Assembly (NCBI GenBank): GCA_016215705.1 | Contig: JACRIR010000010.1 | Location: 1-18,048 of the forward strand | Origin: Candidatus Poribacteria bacterium | GTDB taxonomy: Bacteria; Abyssobacteria; SURF-5 | Direction: 5' to 3' | Length of the DNA: 18,048 bases | Shown here: positions 4,568-18,048 of the stretch, in pieces | Position numbering within the stretch: the first letter of the stretch is position 1 | Layout: every line of letters begins with the position of its first letter | The notes under the pieces: model-generated | Told to the model about the DNA's origin: nothing | Database searches by the model: none | The model's input: the letters and a program-made list of their open reading frames with translations, nothing else | Position numbers and translations under genes: made by a program

Positions 4568-6046
4568 CTACCGCACCGGCAGGCCACGAAGCCCGTCAAG
4601 CAATACGCGCGTCGCGCGGCAGTCGTCCTCGTTGTAGTCGAGGATACGCTGTTTGACGGCAGGGTCGCTGCTTTTGACCCACCTGTCGAACCACTCGATC
4701 GAAGCCGCGCCGGAGGGATGCGCGTCGCGCCACGCGAACCCCAGGTACTTGGCGAGCGTCTTGATGGAATAATCCTTGGTGGGCCACTCACTTTGCTTGC
4801 GCACGACATCAAAGTAGAGATCGACCGCGTCGCCGAATAGCGTCTCGATCTCGTCCGCGGTGCAGACCTCTGGGTGCTTCTGCTGGAGCTTGCGCCAGAT
4901 CGTGCGTTCGTACTTGGAGTAATAGTAAACCGCGGCATCGGGATTGCCCCGCAAGTACGCCCACGCCTGCGCGAATGCGGCTTTCTCGGACGCGGCCGTC
5001 GGCTCGTCGGCGAAGAAGGCGACGTAGCGCTCGGTCGCATTGTCTCCGCCGCGGCGCCCCACGAACCCGTGCAGGTAGCAGACATCGCGCATCGGGTCGA
5101 CCTCGATGTCGAAGAAGATCTCGACCTCGCGCGCAGGCAACGTCAGGGGAGCTTTGAGATAGGGTTTGGGATCGGACGAAACGACGAGTGCCGCACGCTC
5201 CTTGAGCTTCGCGAGCACGTCGGGGCCGATGCCCTCGAATACCGTTTTCTTTCCTCTCCGGCAGGCATCGATGTCGATGCGTGCGAGATCCGCGATGGTC
5301 CTCGCGTGCGATGCGAGAGCACTGCGTTTCGAGCGTCCCAGTTCCGGCAACAGGGTGAGGTCGTTCGCGGCCGTGAGGTCGTCCAGGCAGGCCGTGTACC
5401 AGTGGCACTGCTTGCACACCGCGCCATACGCGGGCGCCGTTTTGCTTGTATGGCCGGTGATCGCCTTGGCCTCGGCCAGACATCCGGCATAGACATCCCA
5501 CATCGACTCGGGTGTCCTGGGACCCAGCAGCGCGGCAAGGTCGTATGGCACTTCCTCCCCGTGTATGTCCCAGACGAATCCGCGCCGCCCGGCCGAAAGG
5601 CCGAGCCGTTCGAGAATATTGGTATAGAGCGCGAGCTGCACCCCGTAGTGTTTCTTGAGCTTGCCGTCCTCGTCGCCCCCTTCCTCGCCCGAACCCGACT
5701 TGATGTCGCCCGGGACGTAACCCTGGCCCTCCCGCCGAAGGAGGTCGGGGTCACCGAGTAGTCCGTCCGCGCTGATACGCCCGCCGTAAATAAGCGGTTC
5801 CCCGTGCGCCATGGCCTCCCGGGTTAGCTTCTCCTTCTCGTCACCGCGATAGATCGAAAGGTCCAGGAACGGAATGTCGAGCCCTGAGATTACTTCTTTC
5901 TCGTACAGGTTGCCCCGTTCCCACAGGAGCTGAATGAAAGGGTTAACCGGATCCCGTCGCGCCGGGTCGGTGAAGAGGTCCATGGAAACCCGATGCGGGC
6001 AGTGCACCAGGTCATAGAGGATGCTTGCAGTGACGAGAATGGGCAT
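4568..6046 (-). CDS. TM0106-family RecB-like nuclease with a C-terminal RNase H-like domain
   Basis: The 492-aa protein fits the TM0106 family in length and order. The N-terminal half is a Cas4/RecB-type nuclease: GDPDLL with D101, VPGDIKSG with D114 and K116, then a helix QLALYTNIL. Cysteines C16 (HCPHR) and C211, C214, C220 (CKQCHWYTAC) are placed as in the 4Fe-4S cluster of Cas4 and AddB. A helix-hairpin-helix-like stretch follows (about 262-282, GIGPDVLAKL). The C-terminal half is a YprB/DnaQ-like RNase H-fold exonuclease: FFDIE with D313 and E315, AVDLYFD with D408, and YNEDDCRAT with D474/D475. It probably processes DNA ends in repair or defence; the substrate is not known for the family. 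AAGGAAA precedes the ATG. The KTSC gene follows. GC appears higher than in flanking genes. Confidence 0.9.
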   Translation of the reverse strand: MPILVTASILYDLVHCPHRVSMDLFTDPARRDPVNPFIQLLWERGNLYEKEVISGLDIPFLDLSIYRGDEKEKLTREAMAHGEPLIYGGRISADGLLGDPDLLRREGQGYVPGDIKSGSGEEGGDEDGKLKKHYGVQLALYTNILERLGLSAGRRGFVWDIHGEEVPYDLAALLGPRTPESMWDVYAGCLAEAKAITGHTSKTAPAYGAVCKQCHWYTACLDDLTAANDLTLLPELGRSKRSALASHARTIADLARIDIDACRRGKKTVFEGIGPDVLAKLKERAALVVSSDPKPYLKAPLTLPAREVEIFFDIEVDPMRDVCYLHGFVGRRGGDNATERYVAFFADEPTAASEKAAFAQAWAYLRGNPDAAVYYYSKYERTIWRKLQQKHPEVCTADEIETLFGDAVDLYFDVVRKQSEWPTKDYSIKTLAKYLGFAWRDAHPSGAASIEWFDRWVKSSDPAVKQRILDYNEDDCRATRVLLDGLRGLPVR

Positions 6047-6101
6047 GTCGTTTCCTTGGCTTGAGCCGTTTCAGCGCTGCATGTTTGCCGTGTTTAATGT
6101 T

Positions 6102-6121
6102 TGGTAGGATTCGTCCTATCA
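6102..6121. promoter_or_regulatory. Inverted repeat in the divergent promoter region (probable operator)
   Basis: TAGGA-TTCG-TCCTA (6105-6118) is a perfect 5-bp dyad. It extends to 8 paired positions each side (6102-6121) with one G-T. It lies between the start of the leftward TM0106 nuclease gene (6046) and the rightward WYL-like gene (6147), where one regulator could control both. It could equally be an RNA hairpin in one of the leaders. Confidence 0.4.
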
Positions 6122-6146
6122 AAAATAACAACAAGGGAGCCAATAC

Positions 6147-6443
6147 GTGAATCCGGTCATCTGCGAGGCGATCCGCGAGCGCCGGCTGCTACGCCTCAAT
6201 TATCACTGGGGCCACCGGATAGTGGAACCCCATGCCTACGGCCTCAATGACAACGGCCATGAGTTGCTGCGGGTTTTCCAGGTCTCCGGCGCGAGCGAGT
6301 CCGGCGAGCATCATGGCTGGAAGCTGCTGCGTGTCGACGAAATACACGGGTTGGAGATTCTCAAGGAGCAATTTGAGGGCTCGAGGCCGGGCTACAAGCA
6401 CGGCGACAAAGCCATGGATCAGCGCATTTATTGTCAGCTTTGA
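6147..6443 (+). CDS. Small WYL-like domain protein
   Basis: The 98-aa protein begins with a WYL-type strand-helix signature, ICEAIRERRLLRLNYHWGHRIVEPHAYGLNDNGHELLRVFQVSG. It continues GWKLLRVDEIHGLEIL and ends with GYKHGDKAMDQRIYCQL. WYL domains are Sm-like ligand or nucleic-acid-sensing modules, usually C-terminal to a helix-turn-helix in regulators of defence and phage systems. Here there is no DNA-binding domain, so this belongs to the short stand-alone class and may bind a ligand or act as an adaptor. The start is GTG at 6147, with AGGGAG 8 bases upstream. It is divergent from the TM0106 nuclease gene and shares a palindromic intergenic region with it. Confidence 0.8.
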   Translation: MNPVICEAIRERRLLRLNYHWGHRIVEPHAYGLNDNGHELLRVFQVSGASESGEHHGWKLLRVDEIHGLEILKEQFEGSRPGYKHGDKAMDQRIYCQL

Positions 6444-6531
6444 GCGGAAGATAAGACGGTCGCGATATCTGATAGGGGAAATCATCGCTTACCGGCCGGC
6501 CATCGGCATCGGCAGCATCCTAATCGGGAAA

Positions 6532-6572
6532 TTCCAATATCGCCCTGTATCTTCCAATATCCACCGCTGTAT
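6532..6572. repeat. Two direct repeats upstream of the Panacea gene
   Basis: TTCCAATATC occurs at 6532-6541 and 6552-6561, a period of 20 bases. Each copy is followed by CTGTAT (6545-6550 and 6567-6572). Two-turn spacing on one DNA face suits a regulator binding site, about 90 bases before the putative toxin-antitoxin operon. No function is proven. Confidence 0.35.
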
Positions 6573-6622
6573 ATTTGATGCGGTCAAACCGGTAGCCAGG
6601 CAAATTCGGCCAAGAGTTTAGC

Positions 6623-6637
6623 GTATACTTAGCATAC
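6623..6637 (+). promoter_or_regulatory. Putative -10 box within a small inverted repeat before the Panacea gene
   Basis: TATACT at 6624-6629 is a good -10 hexamer. It sits inside GTAT-N7-ATAC (6623-6637), an arrangement expected if the antitoxin represses its own promoter. No convincing -35 hexamer is present at the usual distance. The start codon is at 6658. Confidence 0.35.
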
Positions 6638-6657
6638 GGCCATGTCGCCCAGCCCTT

Positions 6658-7389
6658 ATGCCGTCCCCCAACAAGCCTGAATACACCGGCCCCCTACTCA
6701 GCGTCTTGGCATACCTTGCGTCAAGCCGTGGCAGCCGCTTAACCAAGATACGGCTGGTCAAGTTCCTCTATCTCTTCGACCTGTTCTGGGCCCAGTCCCA
6801 AAAACGCACCTTCACAAACTGGCCGTGGGCGTTCGTGCACTACGGCCCCTACTGCCGCGAAAGCACGAACGCGATCGATCTCGCCGAAAAAACTGGATAC
6901 CTGGTCGCGGAGGCCTACGAGTCTCGCTATCGCGACGAGGATTTCCGCCTCTATGGTCCCGGCAGCAGGATTACCGAGGCGGATGTCGATCGGCTCCTGA
7001 ACGACATGCCGATATACGTGTCATCGCGTCTCCAAGGGGCTGTGAAGCGATGGTATGACGATACCTATGGGCTATTGGACTACGTGTATTTCCACACCGG
7101 CCCGATGGCGAACGCGCATCCAGAAGAAACGCTCTCCTTCGCTAACGAAGAGATGCTGAACATGGAAGAGCTTCGCCCCGTGAAGATGTTGGCCTTAACT
7201 AACAACAAGAAGCGCACGCTGCAGGAGGCGATCAAGAAGATCGCGATAGCGAACCAAGCGCCTGGTCAGCCCTCCGAAATCTTTGACCAAGAATACTTCG
7301 ACTTCATCTCGAACATCGCCGGCGCGGAAACGGAAACAGGAATATCCGGCGTCGCGAAGCTGAGCTTCGAACGATCGTCGGATGATTGA
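6658..7389 (+). CDS. Panacea (SocA-like) domain protein, putative antitoxin
   Basis: The 243-aa product has the Panacea/SocA-like signature near its N-terminus: LLSVLAYLASSRGSRLTKIR (about residues 13-32), then LVKFLYLFDLFW, then FVHYGPYCRE (about 64-73). Panacea proteins (formerly DUF4065) are found as promiscuous antitoxins next to diverse small toxins, and the related SocA is a ClpXP adaptor. The C-terminal 80 residues are acidic and polar and could carry the toxin-neutralising part; this is inference. The stop overlaps the next gene by 8 bases (ATGATTGA), a typical antitoxin-toxin linkage. The ribosome site before the ATG is poor. Repeats and a candidate -10 box precede the gene. Some members of this subgroup have no proven antitoxin role, so the function is tentative. 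Confidence 0.72.
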   Translation: MPSPNKPEYTGPLLSVLAYLASSRGSRLTKIRLVKFLYLFDLFWAQSQKRTFTNWPWAFVHYGPYCRESTNAIDLAEKTGYLVAEAYESRYRDEDFRLYGPGSRITEADVDRLLNDMPIYVSSRLQGAVKRWYDDTYGLLDYVYFHTGPMANAHPEETLSFANEEMLNMEELRPVKMLALTNNKKRTLQEAIKKIAIANQAPGQPSEIFDQEYFDFISNIAGAETETGISGVAKLSFERSSDD

Positions 7390-8098
7390 AGAAATTCTCG
7401 ACGGCGTTTTCGAAAAAGCATCAGGGGTTGGAGTTGGCCACCTTGTTCGGTGTCCCGTACCACACCTTGATGAGGTCCCGCGAATCCTTGAGGTCGAGCG
7501 AGCCTCCAGCGAAGCGCATTACGCCTCGAAGTTCAGGGTCGTGGAGATGGATGGCGGCCACTTCAGGTCCAAGCAGAAATTGCCAATTAAGGCGCTCTCT
7601 CTTCATGACACCGAGGAGCTACTTATCTCGAAGGCAAAGAAAAGACCCTGCGTAGTAGTGGCGTGCCATAACACATCATTCAAAGACACCGTGGCTACTG
7701 CCGAGATCAAAAAGCGGCGACACTTACAGGATAATTCGATGATGCTCGCGCCTCTCTACGGTACCGCATCACCAGAGGACGTCGGAGGATTTCCACCAAA
7801 GATGGTCGCCCGCATAAGAGCATTTCTCTACAACCAGTTTTTTTACCTCCCGAAGACCTGTCCGAAAACGAAGGTCAGCCTCGAGAAAGAGAGCATCGTA
7901 CGCCTCGACAGACTCTTCCCGGCATCGCCCAACAGGGGGGTTGAAACGATGGATATAAAGCTGTCGGCCGAGGCTTTGGCGCTTCTTACAGCCATGCTTC
8001 GTGAACGCTTCGGTGCACCTCCGGACGAGAACCTCACCACCGTTCGACAGATACTGTACGAAACTTTGCCTGAGGATTGCCGCCCCAAGCCGGGGTGA
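7382..8098 (+). CDS. PemK/MazF-like putative toxin partner of the Panacea protein
   Basis: The 238-aa protein overlaps the Panacea gene by 8 bases and is surely co-translated. The middle resembles the SH3-like barrel of PemK/MazF ribonucleases: KKRPCVVVACHNT (about 86-98), an inner strand MMLAPLYGT (about 120-128), and ESIVRLDRLFPA (about 169-180), which matches the usual final strand of the form G-x-V-x-x-D-Q-x-x. It is about twice the length of ordinary MazF, with an extra N-terminal region of about 80 residues and a C-terminal helix. If the assignment holds, it would cleave RNA and be held inactive by the upstream protein. The similarity is by eye and modest. The alternative is an uncharacterised partner of the same family pair. 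Confidence 0.55.
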   Translation: MIEEILDGVFEKASGVGVGHLVRCPVPHLDEVPRILEVERASSEAHYASKFRVVEMDGGHFRSKQKLPIKALSLHDTEELLISKAKKRPCVVVACHNTSFKDTVATAEIKKRRHLQDNSMMLAPLYGTASPEDVGGFPPKMVARIRAFLYNQFFYLPKTCPKTKVSLEKESIVRLDRLFPASPNRGVETMDIKLSAEALALLTAMLRERFGAPPDENLTTVRQILYETLPEDCRPKPG

Positions 8099-13099: not shown

Positions 13100-14104
13100 C
13101 TAGTTGATGCTGTGATGAAAAGGACTGAACGACTCTTTCGGTTTATCGAGAAAGACCTTATTCAACAAGGGCAGCGCTTCTCGACCGGAACTGGAGCCGA
13201 GGCTGCGCAACTCTTCGATCATATCGACCGTATCGACATCAAACATACCGCGCGCAACCGTTGGCGAATAACGGAACAGCCTCGGGTCGCTTTCGGTGTG
13301 TCCGATAAGAAGCTTCGCTGCGCCGATTGCGCCTTTACACTGACCCTGAAGGAACAAGTCGCCTGCCGCCGCCAAAAGTAGGTTCTTGCCGCCGGCTCGC
13401 GGTGGGACTGACCACGTTTCTTCCGTGCAGCCAAGGCTGAGGATATTGATGCGCTCCCGATCCCGATTGAGCACACCGACCGTCTCCACGGCTGCGATAC
13501 CCACAGGATTGTTTGCCCATACCCCTCCGTCGATCAGCGCAGCACCATTTGGCATCCGGTGACTGGGGAAATAAGTCGGCGCAGCCGCGGTGGCCAATGC
13601 AATGTCGACAACCCGCTGTTTCCAATCCGTCTGAAAACGCGGGTTATGAGCTGTCTTGAACACGTATACTTCGCGGCGCAGAGCGTGGTAAGCCGGGATA
13701 ACGAGACGTGTTTGGCTCTCCCCAAGGATCCGTGCGCCGAATGCCTCGGTGAGTGCTTGCCGCAGTCGATCGGGGTCATACTTAGGCATGACTACATGAC
13801 GAGCGCTACGCAACCATTTTCTCGTTACCGCCCGCGCACGGCCCCAGACCGACGATGGAGACGGATGTTGGTAAAAAATCGCCGGCCCCTTGTTAAGGTA
13901 GAAGTCCAGAATTTCACGAGCAGAGAGGCCAAGGCCGAGCCCGATGGCAATGATTCCGCCTGTCGAGGTCCCTGCGATGACGTCAAAGTGATCGACGATG
14001 CGTTTGCCGGTGGCGGTTTCTGCTTCGGCCAAGAATGCAGCCGGCAGCACACCCTTGATCCCGCCGCCATCGATCGAAAGTACGCGTGTAATACCATCAC
14101 TCAT
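13100..14104 (-). CDS. capV: CapV patatin-like phospholipase, CBASS effector
   Basis: The 334-aa protein has all patatin landmarks. The oxyanion loop is DGGGIKG (residues 12-18). The nucleophile elbow is GTSTG with Ser47 (45-49). The catalytic Asp is in IDGG with Asp192 (191-194). CapV effectors are activated by a cyclic dinucleotide from the partner CD-NTase and then degrade membrane phospholipids, killing the infected cell. No signal peptide is present, as expected for a cytosolic enzyme that attacks the inner membrane. The gene follows the E2-like gene with an 8-base overlap, and GAGGTG precedes the ATG. It is the third and last gene of the CBASS operon. Family and role are secure; the activating nucleotide is not visible in the sequence. 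Confidence 0.93.
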   Translation of the reverse strand: MSDGITRVLSIDGGGIKGVLPAAFLAEAETATGKRIVDHFDVIAGTSTGGIIAIGLGLGLSAREILDFYLNKGPAIFYQHPSPSSVWGRARAVTRKWLRSARHVVMPKYDPDRLRQALTEAFGARILGESQTRLVIPAYHALRREVYVFKTAHNPRFQTDWKQRVVDIALATAAAPTYFPSHRMPNGAALIDGGVWANNPVGIAAVETVGVLNRDRERINILSLGCTEETWSVPPRAGGKNLLLAAAGDLFLQGQCKGAIGAAKLLIGHTESDPRLFRYSPTVARGMFDVDTVDMIEELRSLGSSSGREALPLLNKVFLDKPKESFSPFHHSIN

Positions 14105-14528
14105 CGTTCACCTCGGGATGTTCTCCGCCACCCTTCCACTCATTCGTCAGAAGCCATTCTTCAAAAAAGAACAGCCACAAATACGTCCACGGCACGATCG
14201 TCGCGGCGATCAACAAATCCGGGGACCACTCTCCGGTGCACGGCAGATATAGACAAAGGCGGGGCGGATCGCCTGGATAGGTGTGGGGTAGCTTCCGTTC
14301 GCCGGCAAGAGTTTGCAGGTCAGGGTCGATAACGCGTGCCTCGGGAACCGATTGTTCCTGGTACTGGATCCTCACGCGGTACGTGCGACTCAAAGGGCTG
14401 GGCGTTGCCGGAAATTGCCAGACCAGATTGCGACGGTGCAACGTTCCGTCCCCTCTGCTGATGGAATTGTGCCTCAGAAAGAAATACTGCTGTGCGGCAG
14501 ATAGATGACGTTTGTGATAACCAACCAA
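14097..14528 (-). CDS. Stand-alone E2-like conjugating protein of type II-short CBASS
   Basis: The 143-aa product matches the bacterial E2-like family of type II CBASS: NLVWQFPATPSPLSRTYRVR (about 34-53), then LPHTYPGDPPRLCLYLP with candidate catalytic Cys92 (80-96), then EWSPDLLIAATIVPWTYLWL and EEWLLTNEWKGGGEHP. In full type II systems an E1-E2 fusion (Cap2) attaches the CD-NTase C-terminus to targets. In short systems an E2 alone, without E1 or the JAB peptidase, primes the CD-NTase. No E1 or JAB gene is present here. The start is TTG 14528 with GGTAGGT 5 bases upstream; no ATG is in frame near the domain start. It lies 11 bases after the CD-NTase gene and overlaps capV by 8 bases. Confidence 0.88.
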   Translation of the reverse strand: MVGYHKRHLSAAQQYFFLRHNSISRGDGTLHRRNLVWQFPATPSPLSRTYRVRIQYQEQSVPEARVIDPDLQTLAGERKLPHTYPGDPPRLCLYLPCTGEWSPDLLIAATIVPWTYLWLFFFEEWLLTNEWKGGGEHPEVNDE

Positions 14529-14539
14529 TCAGCACCTAC

Positions 14540-15730
14540 CTATCCGCCGAAGAAGGTGTTGGACCGGACCGCCACACCGCGATCGCGCCCAACCGTAAGC
14601 CCCAACCCCGGCGCCACTGACAGCAACCCTCCCCGGCGCGCCGAGGTGACCATACCAGTCAGTCGCGCAACAGCTGGGGTCACGATGTTTTCACCGAACG
14701 ACTCGGAAAGCGATTTTCCAAGCTGGTCGATGCCCCGGAGCTCCTGAACGTCGGCGAGAGCCTTAAGCAGCGCAGAATGCCAGTCGAAGAATGCTACGAC
14801 CAGGCGAGGGTCGGTGTTCCATTTGTCGGCGAAGTTTTCGCCCGATGTCGTTTCATTCGGTATCAGGTAATAGGTACGTCCATCGTGTGCCTGGTGCTCG
14901 ATGAACAGCGGCATCGCCATCACGACATCGATAAGAAGGGCAAGCTCCGAGGAATAGGGTTTCGCTCGAGCACAATGGGCGTAGCTCCATGCCGCAAGCG
15001 TTGTGAGAATAATGGAAACCGGCGCCAGATCGCGATCACGCGTCAGAAAATGAATATCGCGATGGCGCTTACAGATTTGAACAATCAACTGAAGCGTATT
15101 TTTCCCGCCGCCCTGAGGGAGCGGCTCAACCGTTGCGCGTTTCCGGGCCTCGGCAAATTGAACTTCGAAACTTGGTTCGATTGCCGCGTACTGTTCAAAT
15201 CGGGCTCGATACCCCTTCGGGTTGGTCGGTTTCCACTCACGCAGCTTTTTGTCCGGTACGAGTTCGCCGCCGTTGCTGCATTCGGGGTTCGGGATCGACG
15301 GTGTAATGTCCAGATGAAACTCACCGGCATAGTTGAGCCGCCAGCAGCGCTGCTTCTCTTTGAGCATTTCTGCGTACCCGGCGTTTTGCCGGAGCCGCTC
15401 GCCAACCAGATGTTTGACCGCCCACGGTTGGGTGGTCCGCGTGACGTGAGCAAGATGGCAAATCAGGTCAACATCGAACTCGTTTGAGCCAATCGGCTTG
15501 GTCGCGGTTCCAAGCGCGATTGAGCCTTGAGGCGAAATCACTGCCAACTCGAGCTCCGGTGCGGCCCCACCGGCAATCCAATTGCCGACCGCTTCGTATC
15601 GCGACTGCGCCGTCTCGCGCTGCGTTTCGGTAAGATCAAGTTCATGCCCGATCAGCTGCAGCAGCGTCATGCGCTCAATATTGCTGCCCTGGGGCTGAGC
15701 AAAGGTCATTTGTACGGCATTTTGGCTCAT
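14540..15730 (-). CDS. CD-NTase (cGAS/DncV-like nucleotidyltransferase) of CBASS
   Basis: From ATG 15730 (GGAGA 7 bases upstream) the product is 396 aa; a longer open frame exists but adds an unlikely Cys-rich leader. The nucleotidyltransferase signature is intact: G69-S70 in SPQGSIALGT, the metal-binding pair D86-x-D88 in SNEFDVDLI, and D141 in FHLDITPSIP. It should make a cyclic di- or trinucleotide on phage infection to activate CapV. The protein ends SNTFFGG, a C-terminal Gly-Gly like a ubiquitin tail. This fits conjugation by the neighbouring E2-like protein through the C-terminal glycine, as described for type II CBASS. The exact CD-NTase clade and product cannot be read by eye. It is the first gene of the leftward operon, facing the capH/capP pair. 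Confidence 0.93.
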   Translation of the reverse strand: MSQNAVQMTFAQPQGSNIERMTLLQLIGHELDLTETQRETAQSRYEAVGNWIAGGAAPELELAVISPQGSIALGTATKPIGSNEFDVDLICHLAHVTRTTQPWAVKHLVGERLRQNAGYAEMLKEKQRCWRLNYAGEFHLDITPSIPNPECSNGGELVPDKKLREWKPTNPKGYRARFEQYAAIEPSFEVQFAEARKRATVEPLPQGGGKNTLQLIVQICKRHRDIHFLTRDRDLAPVSIILTTLAAWSYAHCARAKPYSSELALLIDVVMAMPLFIEHQAHDGRTYYLIPNETTSGENFADKWNTDPRLVVAFFDWHSALLKALADVQELRGIDQLGKSLSESFGENIVTPAVARLTGMVTSARRGGLLSVAPGLGLTVGRDRGVAVRSNTFFGG

Positions 15731-15801
15731 GATGGGTTCTCCGCTATTGGCACCACAGGCGCCTTTGTTCTTGCATTGGCTAGGGACTGGTGCCATACTC
15801 C

Positions 15802-15818
15802 TTGTCCGATATGGGCAA
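15802..15818. promoter_or_regulatory. Second putative CapH operator (imperfect 17-bp dyad)
   Basis: TTGTCCGATATGGGCAA has half-sites TTGTCC and GGGCAA, one mismatch from a perfect dyad. It matches the 15878-15894 site at 13 of 17 positions. Both dyads are 17 bp long and have the same outer bases. It lies about 70 bases upstream of the CD-NTase start, in its leader or promoter. Confidence 0.5.
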
Positions 15819-15877
15819 CGGCACAAATCACCACATATATCGTTTCATACTTGCTATATTGGTCTATTCGCTGTTAA

Positions 15878-15894
15878 TTGTCCAGTTTGGACAA
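15878..15894. promoter_or_regulatory. Putative CapH operator (perfect 17-bp dyad)
   Basis: TTGTCCA-GTT-TGGACAA is a perfect 7-bp inverted repeat with a 3-base centre, between the CD-NTase gene and the divergent Xre-family gene. Read leftward, TGGACA (15884-15879) could be a -35 box, followed 17 bases later by CAATAT. A bound repressor would then cover the CBASS promoter. The size and position are typical of Xre-family operators. Confidence 0.65.
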
Positions 15895-15936
15895 CACAAG
15901 ATTAAATGACTTGAATCCGCTTTGTCAAGGAGTCGT

Positions 15937-16314
15937 ATGGCTGCGTCCGCTTTAGGCGTTTTGTTGCGGTATTTGCGGGAGGAAAGACGATTTTCGCTTC
16001 GGGAACTGGCACAGTTCGCCGAGGTAGACCATGCGTACGTGTATCGCTTAGAAACTGGTGAGAAGGAATCGCCATCCGACGAGGTCCTCGCCCGGCTGGT
16101 TAAGGTCCTCAAACCGGATACGCGTCACGTCGAAATGCTGCGTTTTCTTGCAAAAAATCCAGGCCTAGACCCAGCGTTGACGGAGTACGCCATGAAAGAA
16201 CCAAGCGTGATTTTTGACGAGTTCATGCCAGCAGCAACAATGCGTCATCGCGGCAACATTAGGCCCGATCCGAAGACGCTTATTGAGCGAGTACGCAAGT
16301 TCCTAAAGGAGTAG
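15937..16314 (+). CDS. capH: Xre-family repressor of the CBASS locus (CapH-like)
   Basis: The 125-aa protein starts MAASALGVLLRYLREERRFSLRELAQFAEVDHAYVYRLETGEKE, a standard Xre helix-turn-helix (about residues 6-60; recognition helix near HAYVYRLETG). A helical C-terminal part follows, with a linker after about residue 75. ATG 15937 is chosen over TTG 15922 because AAGGAG lies 4 bases upstream. In CapH/CapP-controlled CBASS an Xre repressor holds the operon off until the partner protease cleaves it. Its divergent position next to the CBASS operon, the partner gene 5 bases downstream and two dyads in the shared promoter all fit. The name rests on context and architecture rather than on a computed alignment. 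Confidence 0.78.
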   Translation: MAASALGVLLRYLREERRFSLRELAQFAEVDHAYVYRLETGEKESPSDEVLARLVKVLKPDTRHVEMLRFLAKNPGLDPALTEYAMKEPSVIFDEFMPAATMRHRGNIRPDPKTLIERVRKFLKE

Positions 16315-16319
16315 TCCAC

Positions 16320-17183
16320 ATGGACGAACTTACAGCGGCGATCAGGGCCCGCGAGTTAGTCCAACGCGTGAACACAAATTCGATCCCTGTTCAAGTAGAG
16401 CCGTTCCTCGCTGTCCTTAGATGCGAATTGAAGGTCGATAACGAGATGGGCCCTCACGAGGCTGGATACTGCTTGAGCAAAAGCGGCAAGCACGTCATCG
16501 TTGTTAACGGCAAGGATTCACCCGAACGGCAACGATTCACCACATTCCACGAAATGGGCCACATCGATTTAAAGCTTCCTTCAGAGCACGCGGGCAGCCC
16601 CTCGTGGAGTTACAACAACCGTTCGGCGAACGAGATTTGCTGCGACACTTACGCGGCCGAGATCTTGTTACCGCATCGATTTTTTAAGCCATTAGTCGAC
16701 AGCGCCGATATAGGGATGGCCGCTTTGGATGACTTGGCTGAGAAGTTTGAGGCGTCGGTAACAGCGACAGGTTCGAGGTTTGCGTCAACCACTAACGCTC
16801 CCTGTGCTTTTGTAGTTTCCGAAAACGGAATGGTCAGATACACCGTAATATCGAAAGCGCTGAGGGAAGTCCGTGCCTGGATTACGCGCGGAATGGCCGT
16901 TCCGTCAGGGTCATCGACCGCATTGATTAGCAACGGCCAATCCGTGAAGGACCCGCAGGAAATTGCTGCAGATGTTTGGTTCAATGACTGGCGCCGAGGT
17001 GGTGTATTACTTGAGGAGGCGCGTTATTTACGCAACTACGATCAGACGCTCACGCTCCTTTGGTTTGAAGACGAAGAGGTGCCGCACAAGCCTAGCACTG
17101 ACAATAATGGTGAGGATGGCGAAATGGGACTCAAGGAATTGGACGGCATCCTCCCTTGGCCAGGAAAGCGACGTCGCCGGTAA
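16320..17183 (+). CDS. capP: ImmA/IrrE-family metalloprotease (CapP-like)
   Basis: The 287-aa product carries the gluzincin motif HEMGH (residues 77-81) in RFTTFHEMGHIDL, followed by SANEICCDTYAAEILLP, where E105 is the expected third zinc ligand. Paired with an Xre repressor this is the ImmA/IrrE (COG2856/M78) arrangement. In CBASS it is called CapP, which is switched on by ssDNA and cleaves CapH. Cysteines C107/C108 beside the active site could act as the cysteine switch described for CapP; this is inference. The C-terminal half (about 140-250) is a ligand-sensing-like domain, ending in a basic tail (KRRRR). AAGGAG precedes the ATG and only 5 bases separate it from the Xre gene, so the two form one operon. 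Confidence 0.85.
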   Translation: MDELTAAIRARELVQRVNTNSIPVQVEPFLAVLRCELKVDNEMGPHEAGYCLSKSGKHVIVVNGKDSPERQRFTTFHEMGHIDLKLPSEHAGSPSWSYNNRSANEICCDTYAAEILLPHRFFKPLVDSADIGMAALDDLAEKFEASVTATGSRFASTTNAPCAFVVSENGMVRYTVISKALREVRAWITRGMAVPSGSSTALISNGQSVKDPQEIAADVWFNDWRRGGVLLEEARYLRNYDQTLTLLWFEDEEVPHKPSTDNNGEDGEMGLKELDGILPWPGKRRRR

Positions 17184-17238: not shown

Positions 17239-17928
17239 TCACGGCCCAAGAATTGACGTCCCAATGTTCAGCAAATCTCGCTCGGCACGATCTTGCGCCT
17301 TGAATGCCGCCTTAACTTTTCTCTCCACCTTTTTCTGGTTATCCAACGAAGTCGGTTTTGGAATCGGAAGATCGAGAAGGACCTCCACGTTTTGAACACG
17401 GGTCCGGTTTGAAGTACCGGTAACTGTGCCCTCTATAATTTCGCGCATCTGCCTCGAACGCAACACCGCTGCTAGGTATTCCGGCAAAGCGCGGTAACGC
17501 ACTCCTTTCTTTGGCCTCAGGGTGAAGTATTCTTTGGATACAACTAGGTCATTACAATTCTTGTGTACCGTTCCGACAGACCCGTTTACAAAATCGATTC
17601 CGGATACGAGCAGGTCTCCAGACTTAACCACGCGCAGATCCTTTGACTCGTACGAGGTTGTCGTCTCTTCCTTGAAACGGACACGACCATCCACGCGCGA
17701 GACAGTGGCGAAACGGTAAATTTCCTGCTCGTCCGGTAGTCGAACTACATTCTCGACGACCTCGCCCAAGCGAACGGTTTCCTTCGCTTTGGAAATAAGA
17801 TCCTTCATGCGGTGGTAGGCAAAGTCTATTCGCATCTCGGGGTTTTTCGGATCGAGCTCGTAGGCCCAGAATTTCCTCTGATACCCCTCGAACTTCTTCA
17901 GGCGAGCTGACCTTCCCCCATTCCTCAT
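17239..17928 (-). pseudogene. Type I-like DNA specificity (HsdS/TRD) fragment, 5' truncated by the IS
   Basis: The frame opens at an ATG inside the right IS end, so its first seven residues (MRNGGRS) are identical to those of the left-flank gene. Native sequence starts about ARLKKFEGYQRKFWAYELDP at 17907. The rest reads like a type I target-recognition domain: VRLGEVVENVVRLPDEQEIYRFATVS, SGDLLVSGIDFVNGSVGTVH, then GTSNRTRVQNVEVLLDLPIPKP and a coiled-coil helix at the end (DNQKKVERKVKAAFKAQDRAE). This order (TRD, then the IPxP motif and a helical spacer) is typical of HsdS half-subunits and of methylase-specificity fusions. Only about 220 native residues remain, and the methylase part, if any, is missing. 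It is probably inactive in DNA modification. It converges on the capP-like gene. Confidence 0.68.
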
Positions 17929-18048
17929 GCCACCTGTAGGTTCGGATTCCGCGGTTCAGGTTGTCTGACCCGGTCTTGGTTGGCGAACTCCTCGGGGGTC
18001 AGGTCGCCGAGGGAACTGTGTGGCCGGTACTGGTTGTAGTCGAGGCGC
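17908..18048 (-). mobile_element. Right end of the same IS3-family element, inverted copy (partial)
   Basis: Bases 17908-18047 are identical to the reverse complement of 1-140. Both copies point their 3' ends inward, so the 17.8 kb between them is bracketed by inverted elements. Identity ends abruptly at 17907, the insertion junction in the HsdS-like fragment. Confidence 0.85.
17925..18047 (-). CDS. IS3-family transposase OrfB, C-terminal 40 residues (partial, right flank)
   Basis: This is an exact reverse-complement copy of bases 1-123, reading leftward into the window and ending at TGA 17925-17927. It is the second copy of the same transposase end. Confidence 0.88.
   Translation of the reverse strand, partial: RLDYNQYRPHSSLGDLTPEEFANQDRVRQPEPRNPNLQVA

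Follow-up and report, generated by a model that had tools for sequence, protein, structure and literature searches.

Paired TTGTC dyads between a CBASS operon and capH-capP are probable CapH operators shared across phyla and immune payloads

Two similar 17-bp dyads lie between a CBASS operon and a divergent pair of regulatory genes in a Candidatus Poribacteria bacterium, which raises the question of what protein reads them and to what effect. We addressed this question in an 18,048-nucleotide stretch of contig JACRIR010000010.1, hereafter the window. On the plus strand, capH (15937-16314) encodes a 125-aa repressor with an Xre-type HTH (PADLOC capH 1.3e-13; Pfam HTH_31; best PDB match 7t5u), and capP (16320-17183) encodes a 287-aa ImmA/IrrE-like metallopeptidase with an HEMGH motif (PADLOC capP 2.9e-52; Pfam Peptidase_M78 4.8e-11; PDB 7t5t CapP 1.9e-13). 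We take 7t5u and 7t5t to be the proteins from Thauera K11 described by Lau et al. 2022 (EMBO J). The minus strand carries the CD-NTase gene, the first of the CBASS payload (14540-15730, with its ATG at 15730; PADLOC Cyclase 1.2e-110; Pfam SMODS), and the genes for an E2-like CBASS protein (14097-14528; PADLOC E2 2.2e-52) and a patatin-like phospholipase effector (13100-14104; PADLOC Effector 2.8e-94; Pfam Patatin). The window has the make-up of a CapH-CapP regulator, in that a small HTH protein matching the capH profile and an ImmA/IrrE-like peptidase with an HExxH motif adjoin an immune operon.

Directly 3' of capP, positions 17239-18048 hold a type I restriction specificity-subunit-like fragment, beside which, at the window edge, there is an apparent IS3-type transposase end (judged by eye). 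Elsewhere in the window, 6658-7389 has a weak SocA/Panacea-like match (0.0025, under Pfam's cut-off) and may belong with the following gene (7382-8098) to a toxin-antitoxin pair. The same genome has a second Xre and ImmA/IrrE pair (L006, contig C189; CapP identity 29%), where no TTGTC dyad was found at 0 or 1 mismatch within the stretch examined.

Both dyads are inside the 206-bp gap that separates the CD-NTase gene from capH-capP. The proximal, capH-side candidate CapH operator, S2 (15878-15894, no strand assigned; TTGTCCAGTTTGGACAA), has the form TTGTC-N7-GACAA with perfect half-sites, and the distal, payload-side candidate, S1 (15802-15818, no strand assigned; TTGTCCGATATGGGCAA), is an imperfect TTGTC-N7-GGCAA. 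As the first-pass annotation had reported, the two 17-mers are present at these coordinates, have 13 of 17 bases in common and are centred 76 bp apart (15810 and 15886). It had also called S2 a perfect dyad, which is true of the 7-bp arms but not of the 3-bp centre, which is unpaired. Scanning the window for TTGTCC-N5-GGACAA gave a perfect match at 15878, another at 15802 that departs from the pattern at one base, and five with three mismatches. The seven matches at three mismatches or fewer equal the number found in shuffled sequence (mean 7.09) and five of them have the full three mismatches, so S1 and S2 are the unusual ones. The perfect form occurs once in the 5.47-Mb genome, at S2, and the looser TTGTC-N7-GACAA occurs seven times. 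With no mismatch in S2 and one in S1, the stronger site is on the capH side and the weaker on the payload side, as in relatives of this locus.

These relatives were collected by a CapP-alignment scan of GTDB genomes, which returned 80 homologous loci. By their record titles they belong to Pseudomonadota, Acidobacteriota, Myxococcota, Thermodesulfobacteriota, Planctomycetota and Cyanobacteriota, although several are metagenome bins, so that single phylum assignments may be wrong. A total of 81 capHP loci were scored and grouped into 31 clusters at 80% CapH identity; because the loci were found via CapP relatives, they are related and the clusters are not fully independent. The first-pass annotation had proposed that its reading would fall if the dyads were not conserved in homologous loci, and the motif search found them to be conserved. 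A perfect TTGTC-N6/7-GACAA site was present upstream of capH in 23 of the 31 clusters, compared to 0.03 expected from shuffled sequences. Within 250 bp upstream of capH, the form with a 6-bp spacer was perfect in 22/31 clusters and had at most one mismatch in 28/31, while the form with a 7-bp spacer was perfect in a single cluster, that of the window; no perfect site was found in the 31 clusters at any other spacer from 0 to 14. Shuffled upstream sequences would give a site with at most one mismatch (N6 or N7) in 0.55 clusters, and 324 kb of flanking sequence contained three perfect copies of the N6/N7 site. In 22/31 clusters (0.85 expected) there was a second copy (two mismatches or fewer) on the upstream side of the first, at a distance of 40-90 bp. 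The column consensus of the sites is YGTTGTCYRNNYRGACAACA, with higher information on the capH side than on the payload side.

The closest relative, L013, has a CapH 92% identical and a CapP 89% identical to those of the window. Between the two loci 19 of 20 half-site positions are identical, as against 36 of 59 in the intervening DNA (Fisher p 0.004). The nearest plasmid relatives of the window CapP belong to Bub operons on Bradyrhizobium, Rhizobium, Sinorhizobium and Pseudomonas plasmids, in which capHP is divergent from the payload and every gap has two TTGTC-N6-GACAA copies or near matches. One Bub locus, on a Pseudomonas aeruginosa plasmid (L010:3437-3568), has three operator copies, the third of which is within the annotated capH start region, so the true capH start may be later. 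In a large CBASS clade (39 loci, one cluster), the operators are more distant from the aligned start of capH, at about 125-145 bp. Three genomes were covered when relatives were sought within the family, order, class and phylum to which the window belongs. No relative was found among the viral contigs searched. Our search of the open literature found no paper giving this operator, and an earlier description of the sites may exist.

The window and L013 depart from this pattern in one respect. They share the TTGTC/GACAA half-sites of the relatives, but seven bases separate the half-sites in both of their operators, whereas nearly all relatives have six. That both operators have shifted together by one base would lead one to expect a corresponding change in CapH. 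Comparison of the CapH sequences found no indel coinciding with the N7 form and no obvious CapH change, and the N7 spacing counts against the reading of the dyads as CapH operators.

The distribution of the motif among CapH proteins bears on which protein binds it. The TTGTC motif is present with those CapH relatives whose predicted recognition helix (DHAY-I/V-Y/H-RLE) is the same. In contrast, the gap of Thauera K11, whose CapH is more distant and is without that helix, has AGTTCG-N6-CGAACT instead, and no TTGTC dyad was found at the Indioceanicola locus, which also has a distant CapH in which the helix is absent. In all probability the dyads serve as operators for CapH, within a regulator of a known kind. 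This agrees with the earlier proposal that they are paired sites of the neighbouring Xre protein, which PADLOC identifies as CapH and whose candidate sites are conserved. From these sequences we infer both that CapH is the binding protein and that its binding would act as a block to RNA polymerase; the conservation of the dyads as a pair favours binding of CapH in the region of the payload promoter.

The positions of the operators were compared with possible promoters. The stretch immediately downstream of S2 (15895-15936, plus strand) is predicted to contain the -10 region of capH, with ATTAAAT near 15901-15907, as well as its leader and its ribosome-binding site (TCAAGGAG); 39 of the 42 bases are identical to L013. 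In the homologues a TA step at +5/+6 past the capH-side operator is enriched (0.71 and 0.66; 31 clusters), as a -10 element would be if the left half of the operator held the -35 region. A matching AT-rich step at the payload-side operator is weak. Together these steps suggest that each operator plausibly covers the -35 and spacer part of the promoter it serves. A sigma-70 promoter scan and a terminator scan of the 206-bp gap detected nothing above threshold; with no consensus promoter from the scan, promoter overlap rests on weak column statistics. The first-pass suggestion that the first dyad overlaps a plausible -35 box of the CD-NTase promoter is weakly supported. The payload leader (15731-15801 in the window, minus strand) and those of relatives have a recurring TGCAAG or CGCAAG about 22-28 bp after S1. 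Often there is also a small G+C-rich hairpin ahead of the ribosome-binding site, which reads GGCGCC-TGT-GGTGCC in the window and is perfect in L013; the fold energy of the window payload leader is only slightly below that of shuffles.

The spacing between the two operators bears on whether they act together. It had been proposed that the centres are about seven helical turns apart, so that two dimers could face the same side and loop the DNA; with 10.5 bp per turn, however, 76 bp corresponds to 7.24 turns and not to 7.0. Within a search confined to 60-80 bp, the scored loci had spacings of 62-68 bp (60 loci) or 75-80 bp (16 loci), with none at 69-74 bp. These two classes are about one turn apart, and hand coding on the CapP tree gives seven or more changes of class. 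The spacings of 22 cluster representatives were phased (Rayleigh R 0.68), although this statistic ignores relatedness, and related sequences inflate it. One locus within a clade with 66-bp spacing (L085) has a weak site at 76 bp. An effective helical repeat of about 11.1 bp has been reported for some loops in vivo, and with this repeat the spacings would be near whole turns. Against contact between CapH dimers on S1 and S2 that loops the intervening 76 bp, with repression requiring both on a set helix face, a repeat of 10.5 bp puts the two sites out of phase by about 0.36 turn, the Bub clade drifts over 62-68 bp, which is more than half a turn, and two back-to-back promoters may themselves set the spacing. 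So short a loop would also probably need a bending protein. We therefore consider looping unlikely, and the spacing pattern gives a hint of helical phasing but no evidence for a loop.

Other readings of the dyads fare worse than binding by CapH. The E. coli LexA box has the geometry TGT-N8-ACA, which the N6 form of the sites fits, and the signal expected for this system is DNA damage, as it would be for LexA (SOS) boxes. However, the N7 form of the window departs from this geometry, the flanks are TTG/CAA instead of CTG/CAG, the motif follows capH-capP across phyla, and the exact dyad occurs once in this genome, where a LexA box would be expected at several SOS genes. It is thus very improbable that these are LexA boxes and not CapH sites. 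The dyads also differ from the E. coli-type LexA box CTG-N10-CAG in both sequence and spacing.

A role as hairpins at the RNA or DNA level, for instance in attenuation or termination, would draw on the 7-bp perfect inverted repeat, which is able to fold. The scan of the gap found no terminator-like site, and the variation among sites does not follow base pairing. The sixth position of the site is T or C and its mirror position A or G, in combinations that appear independent over 29 sites (T-A 15, C-A 7, T-G 5, C-G 2; Fisher p 1.0), so that C is opposite A in 7 of 29. This absence of covariation at the inner mirror positions indicates that the half-sites are read independently, as by a dimer, and a hairpin is scarcely credible. 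Variant sites stay symmetric, with TTGTA/TACAA in L052 and TTGCC/GGCAA in L080. Finally, short dyads are common, as the seven copies of the looser form in this genome illustrate, but the conservation of position, sequence and pairing across 31 clusters refutes a chance pair, which we regard as next to impossible.

The sequences establish the existence of the paired sites, their conservation and geometry, their link to CapH-CapP and their reuse with different payloads. With CapH as the reader of the dyads, the following model can be drawn. A CapH dimer on S2 would cover the capH-capP promoter and limit its own synthesis, and a second dimer on the weaker S1 would cover the divergent CBASS promoter and keep the operon low. 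Phage infection or DNA damage would generate single-stranded DNA, upon which CapP would cleave CapH, so that S1 and S2 would be vacated and both CBASS and capHP induced. The single-stranded DNA trigger of CapH cleavage by CapP is taken from the CapH-CapP literature (summarised in PMC13373217). Taken as a whole, the reading of S1 and S2 as two CapH operators, S2 covering the capH-capP promoter and S1 the CBASS promoter, both vacated upon CapP cleavage, is in our judgement highly likely.

Several known systems resemble this arrangement. The CapH-CapP pair of the Thauera sp. K11 CBASS also combines an Xre repressor with an ImmA/IrrE peptidase, divergent from the CBASS operon, and in its gap there is a dyad whose half-sites are 6 bp apart. 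It differs from the window in its half-site (GTTCG rather than TTGTC), its payload (a NucC-type operon rather than CD-NTase, E2 and patatin) and its CapP, which is 29% identical over 64% of the query. DdrO of Deinococcus controls a genome-wide regulon, whereas the exact dyad of the window is at one locus only. According to PMC10904395, DdrO-PprI/IrrE of Deinococcus has an IrrE-type peptidase responsive to single-stranded DNA that cleaves the repressor, as proposed for CapH-CapP. CapK-CapS (PMC13373217) is likewise an immune-operon repressor with two palindromic sites, the first at its own promoter and the other at that of the payload, but its proteins are unrelated, its TTAA half-sites have two spacings and it is controlled by phosphorylation. 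CapH-CapP pairs on Bub operons (PMC13373217) share the twin TTGTC dyads of the window and differ in having a multiubiquitin/ThiF/DUF6527 payload, the N6 form and a spacing of mostly 62-68 bp.

That CapHP serves both CBASS and Bub operons was already known (PMC13373217); the present comparison contributes the shared operator pair and the boundary at which payloads are exchanged. The same operator pair was found upstream of several kinds of CBASS operon and of Bub, Bil (L017, L019), TIR + E2 (L014) and E1-JAB (L032) operons. Payload labels require nine changes on the CapP tree, or seven when loci lacking a classed payload are left out. In one case a CBASS locus, L028, is placed within a Bub clade that has full support. 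It shares homologous DNA with L021, L024 and L030 over one block of ~1.4 kb (5454-6860; 1913-3320 in L021), which extends from ~12 bp before the payload start codon, at the ribosome-binding site, to the capP stop, and no homology was found between its payload genes and those of the three loci. The cassette, operators and leader included, was retained here through a change of payload. A broader reading, which is possible but which we hold as rather doubtful, is that CapH, CapP, the operators, promoters and payload leader form a portable induction cassette in which CBASS, Bub, Bil and further systems use one operator code, that CapH could co-regulate co-resident cassettes, and that the joint shift of both operators from N6 to N7 in the window lineage could insulate it from cross-talk.

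An operator shared across phyla by a large group of CapH proteins would make CapHP-controlled defence genes predictable from sequence. The regulatory unit, operators included, moves between unrelated immune payloads, and whether co-resident cassettes are under shared or separate control, and how the N7 spacing affects specificity, can now be tested directly.
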